Assembly (NCBI GenBank): GCA_040367435.1
Contig: BAABWY010000003.1
Location: 124,001-188,000, forward strand
Length of the DNA stretch: 64,000 bases
Reading direction: 5' to 3'
Source of the DNA: Hyphomicrobiales bacterium 4NK60-0047b
GTDB taxonomy: Bacteria; Pseudomonadota; Alphaproteobacteria; Rhizobiales; HXMU1428-3
Below are positions 11,862-64,000 of the stretch, piece by piece (within the stretch, counting starts at the first letter, position 1; the number at the start of each line of letters is the position of its first letter). The translations under genes were made by a program, and so were the position numbers. The notes under the pieces were generated by a model that saw only the letters and a list, made by a program, of their open reading frames with translations, was not told the origin of the DNA and searched no databases.

Positions 11862-12041
11862 GTGCTTCAGGTTGCCCACTAACAACCGCTTTTTTTATGT
11901 GCTTCAGGTTGCCCACTAACAACCGCTTTTTTGATGTGCTTCAGGTTGCCTACTTTTTAGCGTTCCTTCGAATGCCCACTAGCAACCGTCGCAGCAACCG
12001 CATTTTTTGATGTGCTTCTGATGCCTACTACGCATCCGCAC
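11862..12041 (+). repeat. Family A hairpin repeat cluster, five copies, one nested
   Basis: Copies at 11862-11890 and 11899-11926 have inner arms GGTTG/CAACC and loop CCCACTAA. The copy at 11933-12002 has inner arms GGTTGC/GCAACC, but its loop is replaced by a further copy at 11960-11992. The copy at 12012-12041 has outer arms GTGC/GCAC, bulge TTCT, inner arms GATGC/GCATC and loop CTACTAC. The last copy abuts the stop codon of the WD40-cytochrome gene. All have the bulge on the + strand although the genes run leftward. T runs follow most copies. Confidence 0.85.
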
Positions 12042-19156: not shown

Positions 19157-19220
19157 TTTGCTTCAGATGCCCACTAAGCATCCGCATTTTGCTTCAGATG
19201 CCCACTAAGCATCCGCAAAT
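19157..19220 (+). repeat. Family A hairpin repeat, two tandem copies
   Basis: Copies at 19157-19188 and 19186-19220 share inner arms GATGC/GCATC and loop CCACTAA with bulge TTCA. The second has outer arms ATTTtGC/GCAAAT. They end 3 bases from the stop codon of the torD-like gene. Confidence 0.85.
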
Positions 19221-39282: not shown

Positions 39283-39562
39283 CTCTCACGGCTATTCCAA
39301 GCGCTTATGGCGCTTGGGCCTCCGAGGTGCGGTGCTAAGCACCGGACGCCCCTGGCGTCATGTCCTTCAACCCGAAATGGGTTGAACTCCTTCTTCGTAT
39401 GGTGAGTTTTTCTTTTCTCTCATGACTATTCTCTTTTAGTGGCGCTTCAGTTGCCCACAAGCAACCGCGCTACTGAAGCTCATAGGCCTGCGAGGTGCGC
39501 TGCTAGACACCGGATACCTATGGGGTTATATCCCTCAATCGTTTAACTAAGCTCCTTCTTTG
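39283..39562 (+). repeat. Family B element, two tandem copies, second with a nested family A
   Basis: Copy 39283-39397 begins 5 bases after the hisI stop and has arms CCAAGCGC/GCGCTTGG (39297-39317), GGTGC/GCACC, GACGCC/GGCGTC and TTCAACCC/GGGTTGAA. Copy 39417-39562 keeps CTCT-ATGACTATTC and CTCCTTCTTTGG at its ends, but its first hairpin is replaced by a family A copy at 39438-39474: outer arms AGTGGCGC/GCGCTACT (one G-T pair), bulge TTCA, inner arms GTTGC/GCAAC, loop CCACAA. In its third hairpin GGAT/ATCC replaces GGAC/GTCC. The gap 39563-39774 shows nothing else. Confidence 0.8.
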
Positions 39563-42631: not shown

Positions 42632-43336
42632 ATGTCATCCACTAGTGAAACTGGAAAAGTCTCTGATTCAGTCTTAAAAGACTTTATTAAGGACACAAGT
42701 ACAGGAAATAATGATTATTTAATCATTAAACAACATGAGACCCAGAAAGATGGTGTTGAGCGCCGACGTTTTCGCCGCTTTAACATGCGTCTTATGGGAC
42801 GTTTTATGTTGGAAGATAAAACGGAATATACCTGCCGCGTGTTGAATATTTCCGCTGGTGGCGCTGCTATCGCCTCATCTGTTAACCCAGCTGTTGGTGA
42901 GCAGGTTATTCTCTATCTTGACCATATTGGACGGGCCAAAGGCCAAGTCATGCGATCGGAGCCCGAAAGTTTTGGTGTTGGCTTTGATATGTCTGATACT
43001 CAGCGTGAGCGTATTGCGCTGAAGATTTCCTGGCTCGTCAATCAAATTGATGGCGAAATGCCGGACATGCGCCGGCATCATCGCTTTATTGCTAATAATC
43101 GAGAAGTCTCCCTTATTCTGCCTGGTGAGATTGATATTACCTGTCAGGTTCAGAACTTTTCTTTAAGTGGTGCTTCTATTATCACCACTGCTCGCCCTCC
43201 AATGGGCTCACAAGTTACCTTAGGACAATTAAAAGGAACTGTTGCTCGCTACCACGATGAAGGCATCGGTATTGAGTTTACAACAGCCCCTTCTGCTGCC
43301 CTATTGTTATCTGAATTTGGAACATTATCGCCTTAG
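42632..43336 (+). CDS. Protein with two PilZ domains
   Basis: 234 residues. Domain 1 has ERRRFRRFNMRLMGRF and VLNISAGGAAIAS (R-xxx-R and the [DN]-x-S-xx-G motif, with Asn for Asp). Domain 2 has MRRHHRFIANNREVSL and VQNFSLSGASI. The first probably binds cyclic di-GMP; the second is less canonical, its arginine motif being RRHHR. It may link c-di-GMP to surface or cell-cycle traits controlled by the neighbouring PAS and peptidase genes. Confidence 0.92.
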   Translation: MSSTSETGKVSDSVLKDFIKDTSTGNNDYLIIKQHETQKDGVERRRFRRFNMRLMGRFMLEDKTEYTCRVLNISAGGAAIASSVNPAVGEQVILYLDHIGRAKGQVMRSEPESFGVGFDMSDTQRERIALKISWLVNQIDGEMPDMRRHHRFIANNREVSLILPGEIDITCQVQNFSLSGASIITTARPPMGSQVTLGQLKGTVARYHDEGIGIEFTTAPSAALLLSEFGTLSP

Positions 43337-43672
43337 ATACGATGTATCTATGTTTTTTTAGCTTCAGATGCCCACAAAGCATCCGCTAAGTTTTTTTAGC
43401 TTCAGATGCCCACAAAGCATCAGCTAAGTTTTTTTAGCTTCAGATGTTTTTAATTAGCTTTCAGGTTTCCCACTAGAAACCGGCCTAAAACATCCGCTAA
43501 TATTTTTGAATTTATTATGCCTTATTTAAGAACCAGAGTTTAAGTTAAAATTTTAAGTAAATTTGAGTAGAAGCTGATTTAAAAGTAACTAAATTTGTGG
43601 CGCGCGTATTTGCGTCATAGAAAAGTTTTTGTGTCATGCTCCCCATTAGTAACAGAGTGTAGGGGACTAAAA
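43337..43672 (+). repeat. Family A repeats, three tandem copies, third nested
   Basis: Copies at 43358-43389 and 43396-43427 have outer arms TTAGC/GCTAA, bulge TTCA, inner arms GATGC/GCATC and loop CCACAAA. The copy at 43434-43500 has the same outer arms, but an 8-bp inner stem GATGTTTT/AAAACATC encloses a whole further copy at 43454-43488 (inner arms GGTTTC/GAAACC, loop CCACTA). T runs of seven follow the first two copies on the + strand, downstream of the PilZ stop. The remainder up to 43672 shows nothing else. Confidence 0.88.
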
Positions 43673-44311
43673 ATGTATCGAGTAATTTATAGTCTTGCGT
43701 TTTTCGCAATTTGTATAAGTAGCTATTCAACCAATGCCACTGCTGAATTTGCAGTGTGGGTTGATGGTCAAAATTTAGCATCACCGCATATGCGGGTTTA
43801 TGGTAATTCGAAACCACCTATTGGTCATGTTCGTTTTTGCCAACGCTATCCACGTGATTGCGATAAATATCGTCAAATCACCAACAAAATTTCTCTCAAC
43901 GAAGAGCGCTGGCGCCAACTTGTCAGGATTAATCGTGCTGTCAATAGAGATATCAAGCCGGTCACTGATCAAGAGCATCATGGCACGATTGAATATTGGG
44001 ATTATCCCACTGGTAGCGGTGACTGTGAAGATTACGTCTTATTGAAACGCCGTTTATTGGCTAATAATGGTTGGCCTGAAAACTCTCTTCTTATCACTGT
44101 GGTTCGTGATGAAGAAGGTGCGGGGCATGCTATTCTTACCGTTCGCACGAAACAGGGTGATTACCTTCTTGATAATAAACGCGATGAAGTGACCGTGTGG
44201 AACAAAGTGCCTTATCGTTTTGTGAAGCGCCAATCTGCTCGGCATCCTAAATATTGGGACTCGCTTTATCCTCGCGAGAGAGAGACCATTCGCTCTTCAT
44301 CTCAGAGGTAA
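43673..44311 (+). CDS. Exported transglutaminase-like cysteine peptidase (BTLCP)
   Basis: The ATG at 43673 has AGGGG seven bases upstream; 212 residues. A signal peptide (SLAFFAICISSYST, cleavage near TAE) leads to the papain-like core: GSGDCEDYVLLKRRLL with the catalytic Cys, GHAILTVRTKQGDYLLDNKRDEV with the His and Asp. This is the bacterial transglutaminase-like cysteine proteinase family. It follows the PilZ gene, as in other alphaproteobacteria. Confidence 0.93.
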   Translation: MYRVIYSLAFFAICISSYSTNATAEFAVWVDGQNLASPHMRVYGNSKPPIGHVRFCQRYPRDCDKYRQITNKISLNEERWRQLVRINRAVNRDIKPVTDQEHHGTIEYWDYPTGSGDCEDYVLLKRRLLANNGWPENSLLITVVRDEEGAGHAILTVRTKQGDYLLDNKRDEVTVWNKVPYRFVKRQSARHPKYWDSLYPRERETIRSSSQR

Positions 44312-60229: not shown

Positions 60230-60814
60230 TTGGGAGGGTTCTCTCAGCTTCTCTCTCACGGCTATTCCAAGCGCTTTGTTGTTGCACTTTAGATGCCCAC
60301 CAGCATCCGTGCTAGCGCTCGGGCCTACGAGGTGTGGTGCATTTTTTGCGATCAGCTTATCCGCACTCGCTTCACTCCGTTCGGGCTGAGTTTCTTCTTC
60401 GGATGGAGAGATTTGAGTTTTCGGCTTTGTGCCATAAGCTGACTTTCTCGGTTTGGTATGGATAGTGAGTAGGATTTGTTCTCAACCACAGTTAAAAACG
60501 TATCTCCGATCTAAACCATAATGTCCGCTTATAGCCCCATTTATGAAGTTAAGCATGTCAAAAAATGTTACAAAATACCGTAAACTGTAACAAATTTTGC
60601 GGTGTTGTGACTACTTTAAGCTCATAAACGGACACGATTAGTGCTTACTAAGAAAGGGCAAAGCTGACCCAACTGGGAAAATTCTATTAAATCATTTAGA
60701 TCAGCTAGTATGCCATACTAGAAATCACGAACCATTTTAATCACAATTCTTTTATTCTCAATTCAATTAACAACGAAAAAAAAGTTATTCCCCTTAGAAA
60801 GGTTATCAATCGTC
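60230..60814 (+). repeat. Family B element with nested family A, then operator-like inverted repeat
   Basis: The element runs 60253-60440, 23 bases past the mutase stop. Its first hairpin CCAAGCGCT/AGCGCTCGG holds a family A copy at 60284-60312 (outer GCAC/GTGC, bulge TTTA, inner GATGC/GCATC, loop CCACCA). It shares the middle 50-base module and the tail (GATTTGAGTTTTC, GCTTTGTGCCATAAGC) with the copy at 44469. Further on, TGTTACA (60567-60573) and TGTAACA (60587-60593) form an inverted pair with a 13-base spacer. Nothing else is seen to 60814. Confidence 0.78.
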
Positions 60815-63504: not shown

Positions 63505-63690
63505 TTTTTAGTGCGGCTTCAGTTGCCCACTAGCAACCGCCTTTTTAGTGCGGCTTCAGTTGCCCACTAGCAACCGCCTTTTTAGTGCGGCTTCAGTTGC
63601 CCACTAGCAACCGCCTTTTTAGCGCGGCTTTAGTTGCCCACTAGCAACCGCCTTTTTTAGCGCGGCTTTAGTTGCCCACTAGCAACCGCC
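63505..63690 (+). repeat. Family A array, five tandem copies
   Basis: Five units, spaced 37, 37, 37 and 38 bases by the position of GCGGCTTC or GCGGCTTT. Each has inner arms GTTGC/GCAAC, loop CCACTA, and outer GCG/CGC pairs. The first three read GTGCGGCTTCAG and the last two GCGCGGCTTTAG, so two sub-types exist in one array. The last unit abuts the DsbA-like stop codon; a T run follows each unit on the + strand. Confidence 0.88.
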
Positions 63691-63691
63691 G

Positions 63692-64000
63692 CTATTTGCA
63701 ATAGGATATCGCGCGCTCCAGGCGATCATTGCCCCAGAAGAGTTCATTGCCAACAATGAATGTTGGTGCGCCGTAGATCTTTTTCTTCTTTGCTATTTCC
63801 ATGATCTCGCGCAAGTGAGATTTATTATCGTCACCATTTGCTTTTTCTAAAATTGCTTGCGCGCCTTCAATGTTTAAAGCCTTTAAAACATCTAATACAT
63901 TTTCTTTATTTTTTGTCACCTGGCCATCCTGGAACTGGCGCTTATAAATCGCTTTAGAAAATTCAACGCCCCACCCTTCTTTCATTCCAATAAGGGCAAC
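63692..64000 (-). CDS. DsbA-like protein / 2-hydroxychromene-2-carboxylate isomerase family, partial
   Basis: The C-terminal part is present; the frame stays open through the window edge (VALIGMKEGWGVE ...), so the true start lies beyond 64000. KKKIYGAPTFIVGNELFWGNDRLERAISY is the cis-Pro and C-terminal signature of the DsbA-like superfamily, and AIYKRQFQDGQVTKNKENVLDVLKAL fits the HCCA isomerase group. It may be a glutathione-dependent isomerase. Confidence 0.85.
   Translation of the reverse strand, partial: VALIGMKEGWGVEFSKAIYKRQFQDGQVTKNKENVLDVLKALNIEGAQAILEKANGDDNKSHLREIMEIAKKKKIYGAPTFIVGNELFWGNDRLERAISYCK

Follow-up and report, generated by a model that had tools for sequence, protein, structure and literature searches.

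Analysis of a 64,000-nucleotide window (C3:124001-188000) of the 3.47 Mb draft genome of Hyphomicrobiales bacterium 4NK60-0047b (designated G000) revealed a short hairpin repeat, family A, one copy of which lies within the loop of another at positions 43434-43500. We consider it probable (roughly 60%) that family A is a genus-restricted, non-coding, selfish hairpin resembling repetitive extragenic palindromic (REP) sequences, that it spreads via the single-stranded lagging-strand template and that the apical loops of hairpins are its preferred landing place. Besides the window, we examined a sampled part of G000 (1.19 Mb in stretches, about one third of the genome), seven genus mates (G001-G007) and 53 other genomes of the same order. 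Judged by flank identities, G003 was nearest to G000, followed by G002, G006 and G007.

Nested copies and their un-nested alleles

The family A unit is a hairpin of ~32-44 nt that consists of a T-run, an outer stem, a TTCA bulge, an inner stem and a CCAC loop. Among 287 distinct copies, the inner arm was chiefly GATGC, GGTTGC or GTTGC, the outer arm varied (GCGC, GTGC, TGC and others) and the hairpin was preceded by a T-run located ~4-9 nt upstream of it; 221 copies had a TTCA and 47 a TTTA bulge. The pattern CTTCAGN{1,3}TGCCCAC had 337 matches in G000; the counts ranged from 1 to 267 among the seven genus mates and from 0 to 3 among the 53 other genomes of the order. The copies were almost wholly intergenic, with only one of 24 clusters on C3 located inside an open reading frame. 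When members were chosen by their unpaired letters, covariation was clear in the 7-nt loop class; the 6-nt loop class was blurred by one-base register mixing, and the covariation count is therefore weak support. No Rfam model matched the window, L048 or L051 at the gathering threshold, and a known structured RNA family was rejected on this basis.

The initial annotation had described 43434-43500 as a family A copy nested in the loop of another, and the outer arms TTAGC/GCTAA, the inner arms GGTTTC/GAAACC and the loop CCACTA were all read there as described. The full sequence is TTAGC TTCA GATG (TTTTTAATTAGC TTTCA GGTTTC CCACTA GAAACC G GCCTAAAA) CATC C GCTAA, with the inserted unit in parentheses, and the two simple copies that precede it have the same outer sequence, TTTTTTTAGCTTCAGATG...CATC[C/A]GCTAA. 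This intergenic gap and its flanks contain the following features:

43434-43500, + strand: nested composite, outer family A copy 3 with another unit in place of its apical loop and closing C-G pair
43443-43446, + strand: 5' inner arm GATG of outer copy 3, pairing with 43491-43494
43447-43490, + strand: inserted inner unit of 44 nt, with a T-run, an imperfect outer stem, GGTTTC-CCACTA-GAAACC and an A-tail; also in G002
43491-43500, + strand: 3' half of outer copy 3, CATC-C-GCTAA
43358-43389, + strand: family A copy 1, un-nested, TTAGC-TTCA-GATGC-CCACAAA-GCATC-C-GCTAA
43396-43427, + strand: family A copy 2, un-nested, a tandem unit with period 38 (DNA fold z -3.96)
43338-43354 (approximate bounds), + strand: terminator-like inverted repeat TAGATAC-GAT-GTATCTA at the stop codon of the PilZ gene, then a T-run preceding the first family A unit
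42632-43336, + strand: PilZ-domain gene (Pfam PF07238, E 5e-22), upstream synteny anchor
43595-44311, + strand: BTLCP (Peptidase_C93) gene (Pfam PF06035, E 8e-65), downstream synteny anchor

As single-stranded DNA, the nested stretch folded better than shuffled sequences (z -1.87 for the plus and -2.84 for the minus strand). In G002, the gap after the PilZ gene contained the nested composite and lacked the two simple units; the nested form is common to G000 and G002 and is therefore older than the split between them. G006 had a single simple copy with arms GCTTGC/GCAACC directly after the PilZ terminator, and zero family A copies were present in G003 and in the more distant genomes G007, G004, G005 and G001. 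The terminator-like repeat was kept in G002 and G006 and absent from G003. At this gap, none of G001-G007 showed a clean empty allele of the outer copy, and the un-nested neighbors at 43358-43389 and 43396-43427 are the best stand-in for such an allele.

The G006 copy bears on the order of events. G006 is an outgroup by identity, and its one simple copy after the terminator, which has no outer arms, is what could be cited in favor of an inner copy that came first and acquired outer arms later. However, the arms of this copy differ and it may have been inserted independently, the nested copy of G000 has un-nested outer copies arrayed in tandem next to it, and the un-nested form at all six allelic loci described below was the outer copy, never the inner copy alone. 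We regard this reversed order as highly improbable.

Alleles without the inner copy were found at six loci elsewhere in the genome, at each of which the outer hairpin is nested in G000 and un-nested in at least one relative. Automatic gap calling between G000 and G003 returned mainly changes in array units; the nested events were picked by eye and then verified as exact strings. For example, the loop of locus L092 is empty in G006 (GGTTGC-CCACAA-GCAACC), has a GGGCC/GATTTC-type insert in G002 and a GATGC-type insert in both G000 and G003. C3:231904 is nested in G000 and un-nested in G002 and G006, L095 is nested in G000 and G002 and un-nested in G003 and G006, and L114:8483 and L115:8156 are nested in G000 and un-nested in G003. 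Another example involved hairpin 1 of an unrelated repeat (family B, see below) at C3:285727, which reads CCAAGCGC-TTAAG-GCGCTTGG in G002 and is filled in G000 and G003. At all six loci, both breakpoints were inside the apical loop or its closing pair; the loop bases were mostly lost at five of them and nearly all retained in the family B hairpin. Insertion targeted to loops, which had been suggested from the surviving outer pairing, is thus supported in general by un-nested alleles and by breakpoints in loops, with the amendment that the loop is usually replaced, few or none of its bases surviving, and it is not proven at 43434-43500 itself.

Nesting was also more frequent than expected by chance. 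By arm signature, 28 nested copies were observed, compared to a mean of 8.7 (maximum 18) in 200 right-flank permutations, and a flank-stem test with stems of at least 6 bp gave 30 versus 11.4 in permuted data (maximum 23). Family A loops account for 0.66% of the intergenic bases in the 1.19 Mb sampled, and uniform intergenic insertion predicts about 1 nested copy there; about 21 were seen, which, by the permutation estimate, include several chance matches, and the excess still stands. Triple nesting was detected at C3:290233, and a single loop at L065 holds three tandem family A units. Inner units of one type were found in many different outer hairpins, and the inner unit therefore moves independently.

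The second nested case proposed for the window, at 11933-12002, is a weak example. Its outer arms are present, but the inner arms GAATGC (11970-11975) and GCAACC (11982-11987) form only four of six pairs, the fold is no better than that of shuffles (z -0.54), and in the predicted structure the 5' arm of the outer hairpin pairs with the 3' arm of the inner one. G003 has a shortened form, a deletion derivative, and G006 has nothing; as at 43434, no clean empty form was present. Other family A copies of the window, read from the sequence, are listed together with this case:

11936-12001, + strand: second nested case, outer arms GGTTGC (11944-11949) and GCAACC (11994-11999) around a degenerate copy
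11862-11889 (approximate bounds), + strand: un-nested family A copy, first unit of an array
12012-12041, + strand: un-nested family A copy
19159-19219, + strand: two tandem family A copies, in identical arrangement in G003
60284-60312, + strand: family A copy
63515-63692, + strand: array of five family A copies, period about 37

Strand orientation of family A

The orientation of family A was near-uniform along whole contigs. C3 had 52 copies on the plus and one on the minus strand, sampled C1 had 34 on the minus and four on the plus strand, and each majority matched the sign of the G versus C skew at third codon positions (GC3 skew). On C1 to C6, family A lay on the strand with more G at third codon positions; on C7, the skew was too weak to tell. 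Of the first exact matches listed, 98 of 100 agreed with the majority strand of their own contig. The leading strand is usually assumed to be G-rich, and on this assumption the TTCA...CCAC strand would be the lagging-strand template, as judged from the sign of GC3 skew. In addition, GC skew was strong on C1 and near zero over the contigs denser in family A (C3, C5, C6 and C7).

Gene orientation did not account for this bias. The plus-strand copies on C3 were located in five gaps between two plus-strand genes, eight between two minus-strand genes, nine convergent gaps and one divergent gap. A transcription terminator or a gene-linked RNA element was rejected as the main explanation because the orientation is independent of gene strand.

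Family B and other hosts of family A

Family B is a repeat of ~110 nt with the organization CTCACGGCTATT-hairpin-GCCTCCGAGG-hairpin-hairpin-CATGTCC-hairpin-CTCCTTCTTCG. Both of its ends were matched by 79 stretches of the examined sequence, which include a few doubtful or double copies; the search needed intact ends and would miss insertions there. The stems differ wholesale among copies yet remain complementary, the linkers are conserved, the strand bias is the same as that of family A, and no Rfam match was found in the sources searched. Family A copies occupy family B hairpins 1, 2 and 4; two of those in hairpin 4 are inverted. In many family B copies, family A replaces the 5' arm of hairpin 1 rather than entering the loop. 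Two neighboring elements in the window illustrate these states:

39285-39397, + strand: intact family B element without family A; hairpin 1 is CCAAGCGC-TTATG-GCGCTTGG
39419-39562, + strand: family B element with a family A copy (39442-39470) in place of the 5' arm of hairpin 1

One composite of families A and B recurs at L080:11638-, L081:12158-, L102:12451-, L112:19046- and G003 C1:34336-, and composites may therefore spread as units. This recurrence is among the observations that fit short-homology recombination, in which rare composites would be distributed by gene conversion via shared arms and most nested loci would not be separate insertions. Outer sequences such as GTGCTCCTTCAGGTTGC...GCAACCGTCGC are likewise common to many loci, and the alleles of L095 (nested in G000 and G002, un-nested in G003) are consistent with allele replacement. 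However, gene conversion agrees poorly with the same inner type being present within many outer arm types, with family A copies in the loops of the unrelated family B hairpins and with the two different inserts in the loop of L092, and we consider it an improbable explanation of the nested loci.

Two further repeats were observed. A third repeat, GCGATCAGCTTATCC...GGGCTGATCTTGTGCG, was found repeatedly in family B, within the loop of hairpin 2 (L111:5138-, L110:12523+, L093:10111- and others). In another, ...GAATTCAAAGACATGC...AAACCGGTATCCACTTTTGTGCGACACGC, family A copies are located within a GCGTGTC/GACACGC stem (G000 C3:301389, G006 L152 and the G003 equivalent of C3:102148).

Known systems and possible mechanisms

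Family A resembles REP sequences and bacterial interspersed mosaic elements, which are short intergenic hairpins with internal irregularity and hundreds of copies per genome (PMC8266576). The cognate transposase, TnpA-REP, recognizes single-stranded hairpins strand-specifically (PMC8266576). Unlike these elements, family A lacks the GTAG, GGAG or CGTC tag, which was present within 12 nt on either strand of only 0-2% of copies, and G000 lacks a Y1 transposase. Of the fixed short targets known for IS200/IS605 elements, the two examined were TTAC, present within 12 nt upstream of 2% of copies, and TTGAT, present there in 6%. G003 has two Y1 genes resembling those of REP-associated tyrosine transposases (RAYT), flanked by a different palindrome, ATTACGGTGACAGTTT; they are located at G003:C1:11451-15676 (L017, L076, L077), in a group of small genes that follows a very large haemagglutinin-like gene. 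Family A thus looks and behaves like REP but misses both tag and Y1 gene, and on these grounds, together with the other repeat at the G003 genes, a RAYT-driven REP was rejected. Other candidate drivers (IS110, TnpB, Y2 and reverse transcriptase) were rejected as absent or limited to single genomes: the one IS110-type gene of G000 has no counterpart in the other members, and RVT_1 had no match in G000, G002 and G003 and one each in G006 and G004.

Several other systems offer partial parallels. In the single-strand transposition of IS200/IS605 elements (IS608 and ISDra2), the lagging-strand template is the target and subterminal hairpins are read (PMC6006769); such targeting fits the orientation bias of family A, with replication direction judged by GC3 skew sign, whereas G000 has no match to TnpA (Y1) or TnpB and family A often inserts in loops. 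Palindromic repeats are preferred targets of the insertion sequences IS1397, ISKpn1 and IS621 (PMC1525189). There, full insertion sequences enter REPs, while the incoming element here is a hairpin of ~40 nt. Nested short palindromes are known in the organelles of Volvox carteri (PMC2670323), and repetitive hairpin elements invade sponge mitochondria (PMC2800124); both concern organelle genomes, and the passages at hand mention neither empty-site alleles nor a replication-strand bias. For nested bacterial hairpins, only these organelle and insertion-sequence precedents were found. In the open-access literature, we encountered no account, backed by allelic evidence, of hairpins of ~40 nt inserting into hairpin loops on a bacterial chromosome.

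Under the reading we favor, the ~32-44 nt unit would move through the single-stranded lagging-strand template, in which it could fold into a hairpin, as could its targets. The apical loop of an exposed family A or unrelated family B hairpin would be opened and the incoming unit joined in, presumably by an enzyme. Joining would usually lose most loop bases while the outer stem survives, producing a longer composite hairpin. A more specific form, in which a bacterial mobile hairpin targets the apical loops of other single-stranded hairpins on the lagging-strand template and swaps the loop for itself by means of a type of enzyme that has yet to be connected with such repeats, is possible although we lean against it.

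Several observations weigh against spread by way of loops and the lagging-strand template. Most family A copies are un-nested, and loops are therefore a preference at most. Y1/RAYT (PF01797), Y2 (PF04986), TnpB (PF07282) and RVT_1 had no match in G000, no target-site duplication was visible at the six empty/filled loci, and several of the most copy-rich regions showed weak GC3 skew. The pattern at L095 conflicts with the ranking of the genomes by identity and requires some recombination or replacement. Finally, many differences between G000 and G003 are gains and losses of tandem-array units, for which slippage suffices.

The strongest rival is template switching at hairpin tips, which covers loop loss and arrays without an enzyme. 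A stalled nascent strand would jump at the hairpin apex to another family A copy, copy it and return to the second arm, such that the loop is replaced and arrays are made and broken. Consistent with this process, the loop is mostly lost, junctions are variable and lack target-site duplications, arrays grow and shrink between G000 and G003, the strand bias fits the replication skew, no mobilizing gene was found in G000, and the stems of families A and B change wholesale among copies with complementarity kept. However, donor and recipient junctions often share just a few bases, the inserts are whole units including the T-run leader, as expected for a discrete mobile unit, and some sites that lack a hairpin in relatives carry a whole copy or composite (e.g., L117). 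We consider template switching a rather unlikely source of the nested copies.

To our knowledge, the spread of palindromic repeats that have neither a REP tag nor a RAYT gene is an open question. The mechanism of family A is open to direct testing, since alleles with and without the insert are resolved to single bases, the strand bias tracks replication skew and loops in two unrelated families serve as targets. If loop targeting is true, hairpins extruded on the lagging strand would themselves be hot spots of insertion.
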